In this document: positions 410 through 63,467 of the stretch, in pieces
Layout: every line of letters starts with the position of its first letter
Position numbering within the stretch: the first letter of the stretch is position 1
NCBI RefSeq assembly: GCF_029263665.1
Contig: NZ_JAJUFQ010000002.1
Span: 248,001-312,000 of the forward strand
DNA length: 64,000 nt
Source of the DNA: Halomonas sp.
GTDB lineage: Bacteria > Pseudomonadota > Gammaproteobacteria > Pseudomonadales > Halomonadaceae
Reading direction: 5' to 3'
Made by a program: the position numbers and the translations under genes
Notes under the pieces: model-generated
What the model was told of the DNA's origin: nothing
Database searches by the model: none
Seen by the model: only the letters and a program-made list of their open reading frames with translations

Positions 410-2491
410 GTGAGCAAACTGAGCAGCCCGGTCACGGCGCTGAAGGGGGTCGGAGAGGCCTTGGCCCTCAAACTTGCCCGGCTCAAGATAGCGAGCATTT
501 CTGACCTGCTGTTCCACTTGCCATTGCGCTATCAGGACCGCACTCGCATCACCCCCATTGCCACTTTGCGTAGTGGGCATGAAGCCGTCATCGAAGGAGA
601 TGTCGCCGCCGCCGAAGTGGTGCGCGGACGGCGGCGCAGCTTGCTGGTACGCCTGCGCGACGGTAGCGGCATACTCAGCTTGAGGTTCTTTCACTTCTCT
701 CCCGCCCAACAGCAGCAGTTCCGGCCTGGAGTACGAGTACGTGCCTTTGGTGAGGCTCGCGCCGGGGCGACAGGGCTTGAAATCTATCATCCCGAATATC
801 GCTTTCTGGGCCACGATGAGCCCCCGGTAGAAGACCACCTTACGCCCATCTACCCCACCACCGAAGGTCTCAACCAGGCTCGCTTGCGTGCCCTGATCGA
901 CCAGGCAGTGGAGATTCTGGAAGCGGCTCCCGATGCCTTGCCCGACCATATTCCTGAACATCTGCGTCAGCGCTTTTCTCTGCCACCGCTGCTGGAATGC
1001 CTCAAAACACTGCATCACCCTCCACCGGACAGCGATGCAGAAGCTCTCAGTCAGGGCTTGCACCCAGCCTCTCGCCGACTGGCCATGGAAGAACTCCTTG
1101 CCCACCAGTTGAGCTTGAGAGAAGTGCGCCTGCGCATTCAGCATGATGGAGCGCCAGCACTCCCCAGCGGACGCAGTCTCAAGACCCGCTTTCTCGCCCA
1201 GTTGCCATTCTCGTTGACTACCGCTCAGCGCCGGGTGCTTGATGAAATCGGCCAGGACCTGGCTCGCCCAGCGCCCATGCTGCGCCTGGTACAAGGCGAT
1301 GTCGGCTCGGGTAAGACAGTGGTGGCAGCAATGGCAGCCTTGACCGCCATTGCCGGAGACTGCCAAGCAGCCTTGATGGCTCCCACGGAGCTGCTGGCAG
1401 AGCAGCACTATCGCACTTTCTGCAGCTGGTTCGAGCCGCTGGATATCGATGTGGCCTGGCTCTCGGGCAAGCTCAAGGGCAAGGCCCGCCTTGATACCAA
1501 AGCCGCCATCAGCGATGGTCGGGCACGCATGATCATCGGAACCCACGCCATCTTTCAGGATGATGTCAGCTTCCAGCGCCTTGGATTGGCCATCATCGAT
1601 GAACAGCACCGATTTGGCGTGCATCAGCGGCTATCGCTACGAGAAAAGGGCGAAGCGGGCGGTCTTACTCCACACCAGCTGGTCATGACAGCCACCCCTA
1701 TCCCGCGTACGCTCGCCATGAGTGCCTACGCGGATCTGGATGTCTCCGTCATCGATGAACTGCCTCCAGGGCGTACACCTGTCACTACCGCCGTGATCAG
1801 CGACGAGCGTCGCCCAGAGGTCATCCGCCGAATTCGCGCAGCATGCGCCGAAGGTCGGCAAGCCTATTGGGTATGCACCCTGATCGAGGAATCCGAAGTA
1901 CTGACCTGTCAGGCTGCCGAAGTCACCAGGGAGGAATTGGCCGAAGCTCTCCCGGAGCTATCCATCGGTCTTGTTCATGGTCGTATGAAAGCCAGCGAGA
2001 AAGCCGAGGCCATGGCTGCCTTCAAGTCAGGGGAACTGGATCTTCTGGTCGCTACCACGGTGATCGAGGTCGGAGTGGACGTCCCCAATGCCAGCTTGAT
2101 GATCATCGAAAACCCTGAGCGCCTCGGTCTGTCGCAATTGCATCAGTTACGTGGCCGAGTAGGGCGAGGAAGTACCGAAAGTTTCTGCGTATTGCTCTAC
2201 CATCCTCCTCTGTCACAGACATCGAGACAACGCCTGGCCGTCATGCGTGAAACCACCGACGGCTTTCGTATTGCCGAGCGCGATCTGGAGATTCGCGGGC
2301 CTGGTGAAGTACTGGGAACTCGTCAGACGGGGCTTGCTCAGATGAAGATTGCCGATCTCGAGCGCGATGCCGATCTGCTACCACGTATCACACCACTGGC
2401 TGATGCCTTGCTGGCATGGGACGCAAATGCCGGACAGCCGTTGATTCGCCGCTGGCTGGGAGAAGAAGCGGGTCGTTACGGTCAGGTGTAG
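410..2491 (+). CDS. recG: ATP-dependent DNA helicase RecG
   Basis: 693 aa; Walker A GDVGSGKTVVA, DEQHRFGVHQR, TATPIPRTLAM, QLRGRVGRG. Confidence 0.98.
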   Translation: MSKLSSPVTALKGVGEALALKLARLKIASISDLLFHLPLRYQDRTRITPIATLRSGHEAVIEGDVAAAEVVRGRRRSLLVRLRDGSGILSLRFFHFSPAQQQQFRPGVRVRAFGEARAGATGLEIYHPEYRFLGHDEPPVEDHLTPIYPTTEGLNQARLRALIDQAVEILEAAPDALPDHIPEHLRQRFSLPPLLECLKTLHHPPPDSDAEALSQGLHPASRRLAMEELLAHQLSLREVRLRIQHDGAPALPSGRSLKTRFLAQLPFSLTTAQRRVLDEIGQDLARPAPMLRLVQGDVGSGKTVVAAMAALTAIAGDCQAALMAPTELLAEQHYRTFCSWFEPLDIDVAWLSGKLKGKARLDTKAAISDGRARMIIGTHAIFQDDVSFQRLGLAIIDEQHRFGVHQRLSLREKGEAGGLTPHQLVMTATPIPRTLAMSAYADLDVSVIDELPPGRTPVTTAVISDERRPEVIRRIRAACAEGRQAYWVCTLIEESEVLTCQAAEVTREELAEALPELSIGLVHGRMKASEKAEAMAAFKSGELDLLVATTVIEVGVDVPNASLMIIENPERLGLSQLHQLRGRVGRGSTESFCVLLYHPPLSQTSRQRLAVMRETTDGFRIAERDLEIRGPGEVLGTRQTGLAQMKIADLERDADLLPRITPLADALLAWDANAGQPLIRRWLGEEAGRYGQV

Positions 2492-2495
2492 AGGC

Positions 2496-2605
2496 AAGCG
2501 GTAAGCGGTAAGCGGTAAGCGGTAAGCGGTAAGCGGTAAGCGGTAAGCGGTAAGCGGTAAGCGGTAAGCGGTAAGCGGTAAGCGGTAAGCGGTAAGCGGT
2601 AAGCG
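2496..2605. repeat. Perfect heptamer tandem array AAGCGGT (= GTAAGCG), 15 full copies plus 5 bp
   Basis: Counted directly; begins 5 nt after the recG stop codon. Confidence 0.99.
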
Positions 2606-2696
2606 AGCGAACTATGAGCCCTGAATTTCGAGCTGTCCAGAGCATAGTCGGTAGTTCTGATCCCTTTGCCGAACTCTATATCTTCGGGTTTAGGGT

Positions 2697-2731
2697 TGCT
2701 TAGAGCTTGTAACTTCTAGCTTACAGCTGGT
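2697..2731. repeat. Degenerate heptad array TGCTTAG AGCTTGT AACTTCT AGCTTAC AGCTGGT (minus strand ~GTAAGCT)
   Basis: Period-7 alignment read by eye; abuts the stop codon of the minus-strand gene at 2733. Confidence 0.6.
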
Positions 2732-2732
2732 C

Positions 2733-3089
2733 CTAAAGATGCTTGAGCAAGCGCTGCAATCGATCCAGGTCCTTGGTATCCCCCACCACACGCAGACGAT
2801 CATCGACCAGAGCATCGAGAAAAGCACGCTGGGTGGGACGCTTGAGTAGTGCGACTGCGCTCTGGGCATCACGAAAACGCAGTTCCAGATCAAGATCCAC
2901 CGGAAGACCCGGCTTGCTGATCATCTCATCTTGACTCATTCGATAGTGGCGGGCGATGGAAAGGTCTTCGGTAGCAATCCCCCAATCCAGATCACCCATC
3001 TCTGCAAGCCGCTCACGGAAACGTGGCTTCTTTCGGTTAGCACGTTTCAGCATGACACCCAACAGCCACAGCATCAGTTTCAGCGTCAT
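2733..3089 (-). CDS. Conserved hypothetical protein (118 aa)
   Basis: Open frame with coding-like composition between recG and the HU gene; family not identified from sequence alone. Confidence 0.7.
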   Translation of the reverse strand: MTLKLMLWLLGVMLKRANRKKPRFRERLAEMGDLDWGIATEDLSIARHYRMSQDEMISKPGLPVDLDLELRFRDAQSAVALLKRPTQRAFLDALVDDRLRVVGDTKDLDRLQRLLKHL

Positions 3090-3112
3090 ATCGCCTCGAA
3101 ATTCCGCTCACT

Positions 3113-3156
3113 ATCCCAAGATCACAATCCCAGAGGACATCATCCCAGAGGACACA
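3113..3156. repeat. Tandem duplication, ~15-bp unit ATCCCAGAGGACAYM x2 plus one degenerate copy
   Basis: ATCCCAAGATCACA / ATCCCAGAGGACATC / ATCCCAGAGGACACA. Confidence 0.85.
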
Positions 3157-3159
3157 ATG

Positions 3160-3183
3160 CGCGGCCCGGTTTCCCGGGCCGCG
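3160..3183 (-). terminator. GC-rich hairpin downstream of the HU gene
   Basis: CGCGGCCCGG-tttc-CCGGGCCGCG, 10-bp perfect stem. Confidence 0.75.
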
Positions 3184-3226
3184 ATGTCACACGTCTCAGT
3201 AGCCGTGACTGTTACCAGCCGATAGC

Positions 3227-3502
3227 TTACTTCGCGACGGCGTCCTTAAGCCCTTTGCCAGGCTTGAAGGCAACAGTCTTGCTTGCAGGAATGGCCAGAG
3301 GCTGGCCGGTTTGCGGGTTCTTACCGGTGCGGGCGGCACGCTCGCGCACGGTGAAGGTGCCGAAGCCGATCAGCGCCACATCCTGGCCCTGTGCCACACT
3401 ACCTGTGATCTCATCGAGAATCACGTTCAGCACTTGACTGGCCTTGTCCTTGGAAAGATCAGCACGCTCGGCAATCGCCGCAGCGAGTTCTGGCTTGCGC
3501 AT
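3227..3502 (-). CDS. hupA: HU-family DNA-binding protein
   Basis: 91 aa; MRKPELAAAIAERADLSKDKASQVLN...VALIGFGTFTVRERAARTGKNPQTGQ. Confidence 0.95.
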   Translation of the reverse strand: MRKPELAAAIAERADLSKDKASQVLNVILDEITGSVAQGQDVALIGFGTFTVRERAARTGKNPQTGQPLAIPASKTVAFKPGKGLKDAVAK

Positions 3503-5810: not shown

Positions 5811-6701
5811 ATGGACCGATCCCTGCTGCGCCCGACTGGACTGCTGACCCGTTTACCCGACTTCCTCGCCCTGATGCGCCTGGATCGTCCTATCGGTACC
5901 TGGTTGCTGATGTGGCCCACCCTGTGGGCACTATGGATCGCTGCCGAGGGTGTTCCGCCGCGTGACATCCTGCTGATCTTCGTGGCAGGGGTATATTTGA
6001 TGCGCGCAGCAGGTTGCATCGTCAATGACTATGCGGACCGTAACTTCGATGGCCATGTCAAGCGCACCAGGAACCGCCCATTGGCCACCGGACGCATCAG
6101 TGAGCGTGAAGCCAAGGTGCTGTTCGTCACTCTGTTGCTGGCCGCATTTGTGCTGGTCTGGTTCACCAACGGTTTCACGGTCTGGCTATCATTGATCGGT
6201 GCCGCCCTGGCCGCTACCTATCCGTTCATGAAGCGCTACACCCATTTCCCCCAGGTCGTGTTGGGTGCGGCTTTTTCCTGGGGTATTCCCATGGCCTTCG
6301 GCGCGGTACAGGAAACGGTGCCTCCTGTGGCCTGGTGGCTGTTCTTTGCCTATGTGCTGTGGACCGTGGCCTATGACACTCAGTACGCCATGGTCGACCG
6401 CGACGATGATCTCAGAGTCGGCATCAAGTCCACTGCCGTATTGTTCGGCAAATATGACTGTCTGATCATTGGCCTGCTGCAGATTGCCACACTGGTGTTG
6501 TTGATCATCGCCGGGAGCCAGATTGGACTGGGAGGGTTCTACTGGCTTGGTCTGGCCGGTATGGCTGCCACCTTCATCCATCAGCAGCGCCTTATCCGTG
6601 ATCGTGATCGCGACCGTTGTTTTCAGGCATTCCTCAACAATCACTGGTCTGGCCTGATGGTCTTTGCAGGTGTCGCGCTCAGTCTCTATCCAGGGCTGTA
6701 A
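5811..6701 (+). CDS. ubiA: 4-hydroxybenzoate octaprenyltransferase
   Basis: 296 aa; [31 protein letters not shown] and [22 protein letters not shown]. Confidence 0.97.
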
Positions 6702-16858: not shown

Positions 16859-19060
16859 TCATAGCGGTGTCAGTTTGGCAAACCCCAGTACCAGCCATTT
16901 ATCTCCTACACCTTCGAAGCTGACATGAACTCTGGCACGCTCACCTTCTCCTTCAGCATTGAGAATGACGCCTTCACCAAAGACGGGGTGCATCACACGT
17001 TGCCCCAAGGACAGTGCTGGATGATTGTCACTGGCAGCCACTTCGGTCTGACGCCAGCGCGCAGGTTGAGGACGTGAACTGACAGGCCGCGAAATCTGGC
17101 CACGCAAGCGCACTTCCTCAAGCAGGGAGTCAGGAATTTCCCGCAGGAAACGCGAGGGACGCTGAAAGGTTTCCTTGCCATGCATGCGACGAATTTCTGC
17201 ATGGGTAAGATAGAGCTTGCGCATGGCCCGAGTCACACCGACATAACACAGGCGGCGCTCTTCTTCGAGGCGCCCGTCCTCTTCGATGGACATCCGGTGT
17301 GGGAAGAGCCCTTCCTCGACACCAGCAATGAAGACCACTGGAAACTCCAGCCCCTTGGCAGAATGCAGCGTCATCAGCTGCACACAGTCCTCGAACTCGT
17401 CCGCCTCATGCTCGCCCGCATTGAGCGCTGCCTCGGCCAGGAAAGCTTCCAGGGCTGCCATGCCCTCACCCGCTTCAATGGTCTCCAGGCTCTCCCCTTG
17501 GGTGAAAGCACGAGCAGCGTTGATCAATTCTTCCAGGTTCTCTACCCGAGCCTGACCTTTTTCACCCTTTTCACTGCGATGGTGCTCGATAAGTCCCGAG
17601 TGTTCGTTGACGTGCTCGATAATTTCGTGAAGCGGCAGGCCAGACGTCTCGTTGTCCAGACTCTCGATCAGATCGGCAAAGGCCTTGACCGCATTGCCCG
17701 CCCGCCCCTTCAGCATTCCATCTGACAAGGCATCATGAAGCGCCTGCCATAACGACACCTCACTATGCCGGGCACGCTCACGCAAGACTTCCACGGTACG
17801 AGTGCCAATCCCGCGTGCCGGCACATTGATCACTCGTTCCAGAGAAGCATCGTCATCACGGTTGAGCAGCAGGCGCAGGTACGCGAGGGCATTCTTGATT
17901 TCCAGGCGTTCGTAAAAGCGTTGACCACCATAGATACGATAGGGCATGCCCTGCCGGATCAAGGTTTCTTCGATGACACGAGACTGGGCATTGGAACGGT
18001 AGAGAATGGCAATATCACGACGCAGGAAGCCTTCATCCACCTTCTCCTTGATGGTATCAACGATGAAACGCGCTTCCTCCATGTCGTTGAAGCCAGCGTA
18101 TACGGAGATGGGCTCGCCATGCTCACCCTCGGTCCACAGCTCCTTGCCTAGTCGATCCGTATTCTGGCGGATCAATGCATTGGCGGCATCGAGGATGGCA
18201 CTGGTGGAACGATAATTCTGTTCCAGGCGCACCACCTTGGTATTGGGAAACTCGTCTTCGAAGCGCCGGATATTCTCCACCCTGGCACCACGCCAGCCAT
18301 AGATCGACTGGTCGTCGTCACCGACCACCGTCATCGGTGTCTTCTGCCCAGTCAAAAGCTTCAACCAGGCATATTGCAGCGTATTGGTATCCTGGAACTC
18401 GTCGACCAGTACATGGGCAAAGCGTTCCTGGTAATGCGCCAACAACGCAGGATTATCACGTAACAGCTCCAGACTACGCAGCAATAGTTCACCGAAATCC
18501 ACCAAACCACCACGTTCACAGGTCAGTTGATAGATGTCGTACAGTGACACCATGGTTTCTACATAGGCATCGCCATGGGTGCGCACCTGATGTGGACGCA
18601 GGCCTTCTTCCTTGCACCCGGAGATGAACGATTGCACCTGGCGCGGTGGATAGCGTTCGTCATCGATGCTGTTGTCCTTGAGCAGACGCTTGACCAGCCT
18701 GAGCTGATCATCACTGTCGATGATTTGAAAGTGCTGGGGCAGGCGGGCATCTTGCCAGTGGGTACGCAGTAGACGGTGGGCAATGGAGTGAAAAGTGCCT
18801 ACCCAGACGTGTCGCAGGGAAATATTGAGCAACGCCTCCAGGCGTGTACGCATTTCCCGGGCCGCCTTGTTGGTAAAGGTCACTGCCAATACGGCGTAAG
18901 GAGAAAGACCCTCGACCTGCATCAACCAGGCGATACGATGCACCAGCACCCGAGTCTTGCCAGAGCCGGCACCAGCCAACACCAGCATATTGCCCTGGGG
19001 GGCTCTGACCGCTTCGCACTGAGCTGGGTTGAGCGCATCTAGAATCGCCAAATCATCCAT
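16859..19060 (-). CDS. uvrD: DNA helicase II UvrD
   Basis: 733 aa; LAGAGSGKTRVLVHRI, VDEFQDTN, GDDDQSIYGWRGA, LMTLHSAKGLEFPVVFIAG. Confidence 0.98.
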   Translation of the reverse strand: MDDLAILDALNPAQCEAVRAPQGNMLVLAGAGSGKTRVLVHRIAWLMQVEGLSPYAVLAVTFTNKAAREMRTRLEALLNISLRHVWVGTFHSIAHRLLRTHWQDARLPQHFQIIDSDDQLRLVKRLLKDNSIDDERYPPRQVQSFISGCKEEGLRPHQVRTHGDAYVETMVSLYDIYQLTCERGGLVDFGELLLRSLELLRDNPALLAHYQERFAHVLVDEFQDTNTLQYAWLKLLTGQKTPMTVVGDDDQSIYGWRGARVENIRRFEDEFPNTKVVRLEQNYRSTSAILDAANALIRQNTDRLGKELWTEGEHGEPISVYAGFNDMEEARFIVDTIKEKVDEGFLRRDIAILYRSNAQSRVIEETLIRQGMPYRIYGGQRFYERLEIKNALAYLRLLLNRDDDASLERVINVPARGIGTRTVEVLRERARHSEVSLWQALHDALSDGMLKGRAGNAVKAFADLIESLDNETSGLPLHEIIEHVNEHSGLIEHHRSEKGEKGQARVENLEELINAARAFTQGESLETIEAGEGMAALEAFLAEAALNAGEHEADEFEDCVQLMTLHSAKGLEFPVVFIAGVEEGLFPHRMSIEEDGRLEEERRLCYVGVTRAMRKLYLTHAEIRRMHGKETFQRPSRFLREIPDSLLEEVRLRGQISRPVSSRPQPARWRQTEVAASDNHPALSLGQRVMHPVFGEGVILNAEGEGERARVHVSFEGVGDKWLVLGFAKLTPL

Positions 19061-19135: not shown

Positions 19136-19231
<96 letters not shown>

Positions 19232-19273
19232 AGTGATTCAAAACGCTTCACAGAACCGTGTAAAGATTCCTTC

Positions 19274-19294
19274 GCTTATAGCTCTACAGCTTAC
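19274..19294. repeat. Degenerate heptad run GCTTATA GCTCTAC AGCTTAC (minus strand GTAAGCT-like)
   Basis: Near-period-7 GCT motifs between the perfect array and the hexR stop codon. Confidence 0.45.
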
Positions 19295-19307
19295 CGCATG
19301 GTCTTTT

Positions 19308-20168
19308 TCAGCTTTCGTCTGGCTCGGGATAACGCAAGGGATTGAGGCTGCGCTTTACCGACTTCAACTGCTCGGCGAGTTTGGGGCCTCGTGTCTTGGC
19401 TACACCGACGGCAAGCACATCGATCAGCACCAGATGAGCGATGCGCGAACTCATGGGTGTGTAGATCTCTGTGTCTTCATGTACATCTATATACAGCGGT
19501 AAATTGACTTCTTCTGCCAATGGAGAGCCACTGGGACACAGGCCAATGACAGTGGCGCCTGCTTCCCGCGCCAGCTTGACACTGGCTACCAGCGCTCGGG
19601 TGCGCCCGGTCTGGGAAATCGCCACAACCACATCACCGTCGTTGAGGGTCACTGCTGACATATTCTGCATATGCGGATCAGCATAGGCCGCGGTAGAAAT
19701 CTGCAGACGGAAGAACTTGTGCTGTGCATCGAAGGCTACGGCTCCGGAAGCACCAAAGCCATAGAACTCCACTCGATTGGCCATGGCCAGGGCGTTGATG
19801 GCCTTGCTCAATGCTTCATTGTCGAGGCGGTCGCGCACCGACAACAGAGTCCCTACCGTAGAATCGAAGATGCTCTGGGAAAATTCAGCGACAGAGTCAC
19901 TATCGTTCATCGAGAACTGAGCAAACTGACTGCCCGAAGCCAGCATTTGAGCCAGCTTCAGCTTGAAATCCTGAAAACCACCGCAGCCCAGTGCACGACA
20001 GAAACGCACCACCGTAGGTTCGCTGACCTTGGCTTCTGTAGCGAGGTCAACGATACGCATATGGATCACTTCATCGGGGTTACGCAGCACGAAACGCGCT
20101 ACCTTCTGCTCGGACCGCCGGAAGTGTTCCATGCGACGTCGCATTTCATCGAACAGCGCACGACTCAC
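19308..20168 (-). CDS. hexR: RpiR-family transcriptional regulator HexR
   Basis: N-terminal RpiR HTH (LATEAKVSEPTVVRFCRALGCGGFQDFKLKLAQ) plus SIS domain. Confidence 0.93.
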   Translation of the reverse strand: MSRALFDEMRRRMEHFRRSEQKVARFVLRNPDEVIHMRIVDLATEAKVSEPTVVRFCRALGCGGFQDFKLKLAQMLASGSQFAQFSMNDSDSVAEFSQSIFDSTVGTLLSVRDRLDNEALSKAINALAMANRVEFYGFGASGAVAFDAQHKFFRLQISTAAYADPHMQNMSAVTLNDGDVVVAISQTGRTRALVASVKLAREAGATVIGLCPSGSPLAEEVNLPLYIDVHEDTEIYTPMSSRIAHLVLIDVLAVGVAKTRGPKLAEQLKSVKRSLNPLRYPEPDES

Positions 20169-20181
20169 CCTAGACTCCTTT

Positions 20182-20215
20182 CTCTAGCTAATGGGGGGCT
20201 CTAGCTAATGGGGGC
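20182..20215. repeat. 17-bp tandem duplication CTCTAGCTAATGGGGGS x2
   Basis: One mismatch; directly upstream of hexR. Confidence 0.93.
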
Positions 20216-20857: not shown

Positions 20858-20905
20858 GCGGTCATCTACTTGCGCGGCCATCTACTTGCGCGGCCATCTA
20901 CTGAG
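20858..20905. repeat. 16-bp tandem repeat x3 GCGGYCATCTACTTGC (third copy degenerate)
   Basis: Read directly; intergenic. Confidence 0.93.
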
Positions 20906-29092: not shown

Positions 29093-29128
29093 ATCTATCG
29101 CATCAATGACATCTATCGCATCAATGAA
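29093..29128. repeat. 18-bp tandem duplication ATCTATCGCATCAATGAM x2 that includes the chaperone stop codon
   Basis: Copies 29093-29110 and 29111-29128; second copy overlaps the 3' end of the chaperone CDS. Confidence 0.95.
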
Positions 29129-30919: not shown

Positions 30920-32758
30920 CTACTCTACAGTGACTGATTTGGCAAGATTACGAGGCTGATCCACATCAGTGCCCTTGAGCACGGCAACATGGTAGGACAG
31001 TAGCTGTAACGGCAAGGTATAAAGAATTGGTGCCAAGGCTTCATGAATATGTGGCAAATGTAACACCTGAATACCTTCTGCTGGCACCAGCCCCACATTC
31101 TCATCAGCAAACACGAATAGCTCGCCACCTCGTGCACGCACTTCCTGCAGGTTGGATTTGAGCTTATCCAGCAACTCATCGTTAGGTGCAACCGAAATGA
31201 CCGGCATCTCGGCATCCACCAGCGCCAGAGGGCCATGCTTGAGCTCTCCAGCCGGATAGGCCTCGGCATGGATATAGGAAATTTCCTTGAGCTTGAGAGC
31301 GCCTTCCTGAGCGATAGGGAAGTGCGCGCCGCGGCCCAGGAACAAGGCATGCTGCTTCTCGGCAAAAGCCGTAGACAACACCTCGATGGCATCATCCAGC
31401 TTCAGCACTTCAGCACATTGCCCAGGCAATATTCGCAATGCCTCGACCAGTTCGGACTGCTCAGACTCAGGCATCCCTTTGACCCGCCCCAATGCCAGAG
31501 TAAACAGCATCAGTGCCGTCAACTGAGTAGTGAAGGCCTTGGTCGAGGCCACTCCAATCTCCGGACCGGCCTGGGTCATCAAGGTCAAATCAGCTTCACG
31601 TACCAGAGAACTGCCGGGAACATTGCAGATACCCAGGCTACCAAGGTAATTACCTTGTTCCATGGCAAAGCGCAGTGCTGCCAGGGTGTCAGCAGTTTCA
31701 CCGGATTGTGAGAGCGTGACGAACAGGGTGTCCTCAGGAACCACCACCTGGCGATAACGATATTCCGAGGCCACTTCAACCTGCACTGGCACACCGGTAT
31801 AACGCTCGAGCCAGTAACGGGCCACCATACCAGCGTGATAGCTGGTACCACAGGCCACGATATGGATATTGCGCACCCGCTGGAACAGCCCTTCCGCCGA
31901 CGGTCCGAAGCTTTCCACCAGTACTGCATACTCTGCCAAGCGGCCTTCCAGGGCAGCGGCAATTACCGCAGGCTGCTCGTGGATCTCCTTGAGCATGTAG
32001 TGACGATACTGGCCCTTGCTGGAAGCCCCGTCGCCATGCTCGAACGTCTGCATCGGACGCTCAGCAACAGTACCACTTGAGTCGAAGATTTCGATTCGGC
32101 CACCCTCGGAAAGGCGCACCACATCGCCTTCCAGCAGATAGATGAAACGATCGGTAACTTGCAGCAGCGCCAGTGGGTCCGATGCCAGGAAAGCTTCATC
32201 AATGCCGACACCCACGACCAGAGGACTCCCTTTGCGTGCGCCGACCACCACATTGGGTTCATCTACCGCCATTGCCGCAAGTGCATAGGCGCCATCCAGC
32301 CCAGCCACCACCTGCTTGAAGGCAGTCAACAAATCGCCTGTCTTACGAGATTCACGCTCCAGAAGATGAGCAATGACTTCCGTATCCGTTTCGGACTCGA
32401 AATCATACCCTTCAGCTGACAGTTCCTGACGCAACGCCTCGTAGTTCTCGATGATGCCGTTATGTACCACCGCCAGGCGATTACGAGATTGGTGAGGGTG
32501 CGCATTAGGCTCGCTAGGACGTCCATGTGTGGCCCAACGGGTATGAGCAATGCCACTGGCACCGACCAGTGATTCGCCTTGCAGCCGCTCGGCCAATGCA
32601 GCTACCTTGCCCACGGCACGCTGTCGCTTGAGCTGCCCCTTGCCATCACGGACAGCCATGCCAGCAGAGTCATAGCCGCGATACTCGAGACGCCTCAGGC
32701 CCTCAAGCAGGATATTCTGAACATTACGCTGGGCCACAGCGGCAACAATGCCACACAT
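30920..32758 (-). CDS. glmS: Glutamine-fructose-6-phosphate aminotransferase (isomerizing)
   Basis: 612 aa; MCGIVAAVAQRNV; two SIS domains; C-terminus RNLAKSVTVE. Confidence 0.98.
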   Translation of the reverse strand: MCGIVAAVAQRNVQNILLEGLRRLEYRGYDSAGMAVRDGKGQLKRQRAVGKVAALAERLQGESLVGASGIAHTRWATHGRPSEPNAHPHQSRNRLAVVHNGIIENYEALRQELSAEGYDFESETDTEVIAHLLERESRKTGDLLTAFKQVVAGLDGAYALAAMAVDEPNVVVGARKGSPLVVGVGIDEAFLASDPLALLQVTDRFIYLLEGDVVRLSEGGRIEIFDSSGTVAERPMQTFEHGDGASSKGQYRHYMLKEIHEQPAVIAAALEGRLAEYAVLVESFGPSAEGLFQRVRNIHIVACGTSYHAGMVARYWLERYTGVPVQVEVASEYRYRQVVVPEDTLFVTLSQSGETADTLAALRFAMEQGNYLGSLGICNVPGSSLVREADLTLMTQAGPEIGVASTKAFTTQLTALMLFTLALGRVKGMPESEQSELVEALRILPGQCAEVLKLDDAIEVLSTAFAEKQHALFLGRGAHFPIAQEGALKLKEISYIHAEAYPAGELKHGPLALVDAEMPVISVAPNDELLDKLKSNLQEVRARGGELFVFADENVGLVPAEGIQVLHLPHIHEALAPILYTLPLQLLSYHVAVLKGTDVDQPRNLAKSVTVE

Positions 32759-32783: not shown

Positions 32784-32839
32784 GCTCGTAGCTCGTAGCT
32801 CGTAGCTCGTAGCTCGTAGCTCGTAGCTCGTAGCTCGTA
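32784..32839. repeat. Perfect heptamer tandem array GCTCGTA (= GTAGCTC), 8 copies
   Basis: Counted directly; fills most of the glmU-glmS spacer. Confidence 0.99.
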
Positions 32840-32845
32840 GCGAGC

Positions 32846-34213
32846 CTAATTGTCCTTGGTAGGACGTGGCCAATTATCCTTGCCAATCTGGCGTGAGCGA
32901 CTTACCGCCAGGCTGTGATCGGCAACATCACGACTGATGGTGGAGCCAGCGCCTACCGTTGCTCCCTTGCCCACACTGACAGGGGCAACAAGAGCACTGT
33001 TGGAGCCAATGAAGGCCTCATCTCCGATTTCTGTGCGGTGCTTGTTGGCACCGTCGTAGTTACAGGTGATGGTACCTGCACCGATATTCACATCGCGGCC
33101 CAGACGCGCATCACCGATATAACTCAAGTGATTGATCTTGGTACCTTCACCCACCTCGGCATTCTTGGTCTCGACGAAGTTTCCAACCCTGACACGTACT
33201 GCCAGCCGAGAGCCAGGACGCAGACGAGCGAAGGGGCCAATATGGTTGAGCCCGGCAAGCACAGCACCATCGACCACACTATGGGCATCAATGACACTTT
33301 CGGCACCAATACGGCTGTTGCGCACAATACAATAGGGGCCAATACGCACCCCTTCTCCCAGTTCAACATCGCCTTCGAACACACAACCCACATCGATATG
33401 GACATCGTGTCCGCAGATCAGGCTGCCACGTACATCGATCCTCGTCGGATCCGCCAGTGCCACCCCCTGAGTCATCAGATGTTCGGCGATATCCCGCTGA
33501 TAGGTGCGTTCCAGCCAGGCCATCTGCTGTCGGTTGTTGACCCCCTCGACTTCCATGGCCCGAGCCGGTTGAGCTGTCGAGATGGTGATACCTTCGGCAG
33601 CAGCCATGGCGATGATATCCGTCAAGTAGTACTCGCCCTGGGCATTGTCGGCAGACAATTGTGGTAGCCAGCGCCTCAGTTGGTTGGCTGTCATGGCCAT
33701 GATGCCGGTATTGCATTCCTTGATCAGCAATTGTTCAGGGCTGGCATCCTTCTGCTCAATGATCGCGACCGCCTGGCCTCCTTCGTCCCGCACAATACGC
33801 CCATAGCCACCTGGATCGTCCAGCGTCACGGTTAACAACCCCATGTGCTTTTCGTCGACCTGGGCCAGCAGCGCCTCCAGGGTAGCCCGGCGGATTAATG
33901 GAACATCACCATACAACACCAGCACCTTTCCCTGCCCCAAGCCATCAAGTGCCTGTGCCACGGCATGGCCAGTCCCCATCTGTTCAGCCTGAACAGCAAA
34001 GTGCAAAGGGCGGTTACAATCAGCCAACGCCTCGCGAACCATGTCACCACCATGGCCGATGACGACATGAATACGATCCGCATCAAGACCACTGGCAGTA
34101 TCGATGACGTGGCGTACCATAGATTTACCGGCCAGCTCGTGCAGCACCTTGGGCAGACGCGAGCGCATACGAGTACCTTGTCCGGCAGCGAGTATCACCA
34201 CATCCAGGCTCAT
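32846..34213 (-). CDS. glmU: Bifunctional GlcNAc-1-P uridyltransferase / GlcN-1-P acetyltransferase (start at MSLDVVILAAGQGTRM)
   Basis: LAAGQGTRMRSRLPKVLH; left-handed beta-helix hexapeptides; ITCNYDGANKHRTEIGDEAFIGSNS. Confidence 0.98.
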   Translation of the reverse strand: MSLDVVILAAGQGTRMRSRLPKVLHELAGKSMVRHVIDTASGLDADRIHVVIGHGGDMVREALADCNRPLHFAVQAEQMGTGHAVAQALDGLGQGKVLVLYGDVPLIRRATLEALLAQVDEKHMGLLTVTLDDPGGYGRIVRDEGGQAVAIIEQKDASPEQLLIKECNTGIMAMTANQLRRWLPQLSADNAQGEYYLTDIIAMAAAEGITISTAQPARAMEVEGVNNRQQMAWLERTYQRDIAEHLMTQGVALADPTRIDVRGSLICGHDVHIDVGCVFEGDVELGEGVRIGPYCIVRNSRIGAESVIDAHSVVDGAVLAGLNHIGPFARLRPGSRLAVRVRVGNFVETKNAEVGEGTKINHLSYIGDARLGRDVNIGAGTITCNYDGANKHRTEIGDEAFIGSNSALVAPVSVGKGATVGAGSTISRDVADHSLAVSRSRQIGKDNWPRPTKDN

Positions 34214-63437: not shown

Positions 63438-63467
63438 CATCGCGTTTAATACCATCGCGTTTAATAA
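63438..63467. repeat. 15-bp tandem duplication CATCGCGTTTAATAM x2
   Basis: One mismatch between copies; upstream of the lipoprotein gene. Confidence 0.93.

Follow-up and report, generated by a model that had tools for sequence, protein, structure and literature searches.

The arrays described here are intergenic heptanucleotide long simple sequence repeats (LSSRs). Repeats of this type have been described before; the word rule (RRGC-Y-NN) and the orientation rule followed here are unusual. The array located in the 3′ flank of recG is such a heptanucleotide LSSR and is non-coding. It occupies positions 2496–2605 of the window (the whole 64,000 nt stretch of DNA that was analysed) and consists of 15.7 copies of AAGCGGT (in another reading frame, GTAAGCG) on the plus strand. 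Based on TRF and direct reading, the period is 7, with 100% matches and no indels. The first array base is the fifth base past the recG stop codon (TAG, 2489–2491), in agreement with the earlier note, which had reported 15 perfect GTAAGCG units and a partial one just past this stop.

The recG gene (410–2491, plus strand) encodes ATP-dependent DNA helicase RecG of 693 aa with the Pfam domains RecG_wedge, DEAD, Helicase_C and RecG_dom3_C, and it has 80 named Halomonadaceae orthologues. Based on these, the closest named relative is H. cupida (90% protein identity), and the window belongs to Halomonas. The array reads AAGC (RRGC) on the recG coding strand. Further downstream, sequence reading indicated degenerate inverted heptads on the minus strand (2698–2727; GCTTAGAGCTTGTAACTTCTAGCTTACAGC on the plus strand) containing the motif GCTTN3GCTT, so that RRGC here lies on the coding strand of a convergent gene. 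This gene (2733–3089, minus strand) encodes 118 aa, has no Pfam match and is kept beside recG in many Halomonas. Upstream of recG, the stop codon of the preceding gene is directly followed by a degenerate 14-bp period (GTTTGAAACACGAC ..., 323–380) made of two alternating heptads, which may represent a degraded relative of the arrays.

Two more arrays are present in the window. The second one, AAGCCGT (GTAAGCC) ×13.7, is also perfect (19136–19231, plus strand) and lies between an UvrD/Rep-type helicase gene (16859–19060, minus strand), whose start faces it, and an RpiR-type regulator gene with HTH_6 and SIS domains (19308–20168, minus strand), both assigned by Pfam. It is followed by a core (19232–19273) and an inverted heptad arm (GCTTATAGCTCTACAGCTTACCGC, 19274–19297). 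The segment 19232–19297 is dispersed in the genome, where five more copies were found (88–95% identity, E 3.5e-23 to 1.8e-13), and every one of the six core copies has both a GTAAGCC array and an inverted heptad arm beside it. The third array, GCTCGTA ×8.3 (32784–32841, minus strand), reads GAGCTAC on the glmU coding strand and lies in the glmU–glmS spacer. It starts 4 nt past the stop of glmU (32846–34213, minus strand; nucleotidyl transferase and hexapeptide repeats by Pfam) and lies 25 nt upstream of the start of glmS (30920–32758, minus strand; two SIS and glutamine amidotransferase domains by Pfam). The proposal that all three arrays lie just outside a coding sequence thus holds for those at 2496 and 32784 but fails for that at 19136, which is 76 nt from the nearest stop, that of the RpiR-type gene. 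The related statement that a simple repeat product in a single frame is impossible with a 7-bp unit was imprecise: one frame gives a seven-residue repeat unless a stop falls inside it, and GTAAGCG does have a stop on the plus strand.

With a matched-run threshold of 14, a search for arrays with periods of 4–11 bp in 332 kb of the same contig yielded only the three heptamer arrays of the window, and a shuffled copy of the 332 kb yielded none at the same periods and threshold. The recG-site array is therefore far beyond chance. Short perfect or near-perfect tandem duplications with units of 15–18 bp were also seen in the window, at 20182–20214, 20858–20902, 29093–29127 and 63438–63466.

Counts were based on the strict pattern GTARSYN ×4 only, because the reversed control of a looser AGC pattern was not clean (some array words match it). 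In the own genome, a 4.69 Mb draft of 50 contigs, the strict pattern gave 199 overlapping matches and its reversed control 0. The first 100 of these 199 matches listed correspond to about 16 arrays, from which we estimate by extrapolation that the genome holds 25–35 heptamer arrays. Among relatives, strict matches occurred in 48 of the 89 that belong to the same genus and in 4 of the 56 genomes that represent other families of the order. The family suspected in the earlier note thus recurs both in this genome and in its relatives, but its definition by GTAAGCN proved too narrow: a looser rule applies (sense RRGC, mostly followed by Y, with two free positions), and the words include GCAAGCT, GGAAGCT, GAGCTAC and GGGCTGC. 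A perfect array of 33.3 units was found in a complete genome (L133). Heptamer arrays contain at least five of the contig ends in the draft (G000 contigs C7, C11, C16, C17 and C23; loci L017, L164, L128, L125 and L126), which makes the copy numbers of certain arrays minimum values.

The orientation of the words relative to genes was strict. All 43 arrays located within 40 nt of a stop codon carry RRGC on the coding strand of that gene, and only 5 of the 43 carry it on the opposite strand; a random heptamer would show it by chance in 16% of cases. The RRGC form was settled on once the words had been seen; a stricter version, fixed at an earlier point (AAGC or GAGC, present on just one strand, the RAGC rule), gave 32 of 32 in sense. 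Aligned in sense, the 19 distinct words give R R G C (T>G,C) N N, with GC invariant and purines at both 5′ positions. It should be kept in mind that the search pattern biases the word content at most loci; the search covered both strands, however, so that the orientation relative to genes is free of this bias. According to a simple gene caller, 29 of 51 arrays lie between convergent genes, 21 between tandem genes and 1 between divergent genes. Many loci share a common layout, in which a stop codon is followed by heptads, a GC-rich hairpin or other core, inverted heptads and the stop of the convergent gene. In 225 + 253 array-free 3′ flanks, AAGC/GAGC showed neither excess nor strand bias. Ordinary 3′ flanks and terminators are therefore not the source of the rule, and seeding from these was rejected.

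The recG site was followed in the 80 named loci by scanning 420 bp past recG without a motif filter. This revealed 13 period-7 arrays against one of period 8. Periods 9 and 11 were seen as two short runs, and periods 4–6 were not found in these flanks. Eight distinct words occur at this site across species. AGC is present on one strand in 12 of the 13 period-7 arrays (22% expected, p ~1e-7) and in 7 of the 8 distinct words (p ~1.5e-4), both p-values being optimistic because the loci are related. In Halomonas urmiana, the site (L084, ~6088–6155) holds an octameric array, GCCAAGCG ×8.5, with AAGC still in sense.

The comparison with a sister genome, a complete single-contig relative (mean identity 92.2% over 273 kb; 96% for recG), showed how such sites change. 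The sister has arrays at exactly the three sites of the window and none elsewhere in ~300 kb. At the 19136 site, the word is the same and only the length differs (17.7 copies in the sister against 13.7 here); another orthologous pair with a common word has 5.4 units in one genome (L127) and 10.4 in its sister (L132). At the glmU–glmS site, (GAGCTAC)8.3 corresponds to (GAGCTAC)9(GAGCTAA)5 in the sister, where the new variant forms one solid block; no array was found at this site in 28 further species inspected. At the recG site, the sister carries (AGCTTCG)4.4, (AGCTTCT)5.4 and (GCTCGCG)(GCTCGTG)3(GCTCGTA)5 and no GTAAGCG at all. The recG intergenic DNA of the two genomes is essentially unalignable, whereas the genes on either side are 94–96% identical. 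The recG-site array is thus intergenic and variable between relatives, and the view that its perfect identity reflects recent expansion or homogenisation is supported by this comparison. Besides the blocks at the sister's glmU–glmS and recG sites, variant units form solid blocks in (GTAAGCC)4(GTAAGAC)14(GTAAGCC), found at locus L167, where it faces an AGCTTAT-type inverted array. Such solid blocks are what the local multiplication of a single mutant unit would leave behind. The 3′ region of recG in the sister (L204, G075:C1:4755743-4755889) also shows a local duplication of a ~100 bp module, with different heptamer words beside each copy.

Based on the above results, we consider it moderately probable that replication slippage renews tolerated arrays that were seeded in heptad elements past stop codons, and we rank this explanation above that of a selected 3′-end element. 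The array would originate from a short RRGC-Y-N-N heptad element directly past a stop codon, in the coding-strand reading and often with an inverted partner by the convergent gene. Slipped-strand mispairing in replication would then lengthen and shorten the array. The copies of one mutated unit would periodically replace the whole array, so that word and length change at a site that itself endures. Slippage, and not unequal recombination, probably drives this turnover, and the partial self-complementarity of the unit (GC with flanking R/Y) may help it. Since they are located just outside coding sequences, the arrays are presumably tolerated rather than needed. Slippage explains the perfect identity, the changes in copy number, the block variants and the replacement of words at fixed sites. 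On its own, however, it leaves the RRGC rule and the sense orientation unexplained. Random seeds predict random words and random orientation, and array-free flanks show no RRGC excess or strand bias; a constraint or a shared ancestral element is therefore needed. The source of the rule may be either a common class of post-stop heptad elements, or unit chemistry together with the direction of transcription choosing the seeds, or a selected function at the 3′ end.

The last of these leads to the main alternative, in which the sense (RRGC-Y-NN)n tract, together with its inverted partner, would function in the 3′ untranslated region of the transcript. The two could belong to a bidirectional terminator, stabilise the RNA by their structure or insulate convergent genes from one another; slippage would renew the tract and selection would keep the grammar and the site. 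We regard it as possible but doubtful. The sense orientation in all 43 arrays near stop codons speaks for it, as do the sites retained in the sister while their sequence was replaced and the many arrays that adjoin GC-rich hairpins between convergent genes. Pairing points the same way in part: the inverted partner pairs better than a direct one in 24 of 33 loci, and the minus-strand fold of the 19136-array element (19210–19307) beats shuffles (z = −3.8). However, the arms of a locus pair with each other barely better than with the arms of other loci (−35.3 against −33.5), and arm co-evolution was rejected, as own arms pair on average no better than foreign ones. Self-structure is also not unusual for every word, 10 sense GTAAGCC units giving only −7 kcal/mol. 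The recG locus itself argues against the alternative. No intrinsic terminator (GC-rich stem and T tract) was found in 2300–3000, the fold of 2606–2733 was no better than shuffles (z −0.2, or +2.0 with the array included), and neither was the pairing of the array with the inverted heptads at 2698–2727 (z −0.5). An intrinsic terminator at recG was rejected on these scans and folds. In addition, an array is missing from most recG loci of Halomonas (present in 13 of 80), and arrays also occur inside an operon (glmU–glmS). A wider form of the same idea, that post-stop heptad elements are a functional class in Halomonas with fixed grammar (sense RRGC-Y-NN) and position, where period, orientation and core dinucleotide are selected and the exact word is free to be rewritten by slippage, seems unlikely to us. 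Among other structures and RNAs, a G-quadruplex was rejected, as GTAAGCG, GTAAGCC and GAGCTAC do not contain GGG, and Rfam covariance models gave no match at E ≤ 1 in 2300–3300.

It is quite unlikely that the array is the expanded arm of a mobile or exchangeable dispersed element, whose heptad arms and core move together by transposition or by ectopic recombination between arrays. The six copies of the 19136-array core with their arrays and arms would fit such an element, and so would one hairpin core that recurs at several loci and the replacement of the entire recG intergenic region between the sister species. At recG, on the other hand, the core is single-copy in its own genome (best other match E 0.09), its counterpart in the sister is duplicated only locally, and the three sites are common to both sisters rather than scattered. 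A dispersed mobile core (MITE/REP-like) was accordingly rejected for recG, while the 19136 array does have one. The idea of a contingency locus, where copy number would switch the expression of a neighbour by phase variation, is very improbable despite the long perfect repeat, the unit length of 7 that is not a multiple of 3 and the array 25 nt upstream of glmS. The arrays lie past stop codons and not in frames or promoters, with 1 of 51 between divergent genes, and the neighbours are housekeeping genes (recG, glmU, uvrD-type); at recG, a phase-variable repeat was rejected, the array being past the recG stop between convergent genes. An assembly artefact, suggested by the 50-contig draft with its contig ends in such arrays, has a next to negligible chance and concerns only the exact copy number here. 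As to the existence of the arrays it is refuted, because the complete sister genome carries arrays at the same sites, and other complete genomes have arrays too. The idea of a recurring family thus withstood both refuting conditions named in the earlier note, an assembly artefact and a lack of further arrays in the genome.

Returning to slippage in known systems, heptanucleotide LSSRs are over-represented in bacterial intergenic regions, and slippage was proposed for them (Mrazek et al. 2007, as cited in PMC4692102 and PMC4679880). They resemble the Halomonas arrays as intergenic heptamer repeats with proposed slippage. The closest parallel described is found in the GGGAATC / GGGGA(C/T)T heptamers of Xanthomonas and Nostoc (Rehm et al. 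2015, PMC4692102). They are intergenic, lie downstream on the coding strand at a mean of 28 nt from the stop of the 5′ gene, form inverted pairs and vary in length and sequence between related species, and their function is unknown. The Halomonas arrays are alike in their intergenic post-stop location, coding-strand orientation (32/32 RAGC, 43/43 RRGC), inverted pairs and variation between relatives. In contrast, the Xanthomonas and Nostoc heptamers are G-rich and G-quadruplex-capable, with one main word per genome and a preference for four units (PMC4692102), whereas the words of the window lack tracts of three or more G, vary by array and species with two or more free positions, and mostly occur in 5–33 units. 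The TAACTGA heptamers of marine Beggiatoaceae, cyanobacteria and Bacteroidetes are likewise tandem, intergenic and phylogenetically patchy (MacGregor 2015, PMC4679880). Unlike the Halomonas arrays, they have a single fixed word, mostly in 2–6 copies, and lie upstream of start codons, where a translational role was suggested (PMC4679880).

In the open-licence literature searched, no description of Halomonas heptamer repeats or of their word rule or orientation rule was found. The STRR heptamers of heterocystous cyanobacteria comprise several related heptamer words in tandem per genome. They are similar to the Halomonas arrays in having several related words per genome but differ in words and taxon; a case in Calothrix is cited in PMC4692102.

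The arrays represent a natural experiment on the bacterial preference for 7-bp repeats, since orthologous sites can be traced through many species as word and length turn over. Their strict orientation relative to the ends of genes, and a GC that never varies and is preceded by purines, raise the question of whether transcription direction, a 3′-end function or slippage chemistry lies behind the rule. In practical terms, short-read assemblies of Halomonas break at these arrays, which would be useful as markers for typing strains.
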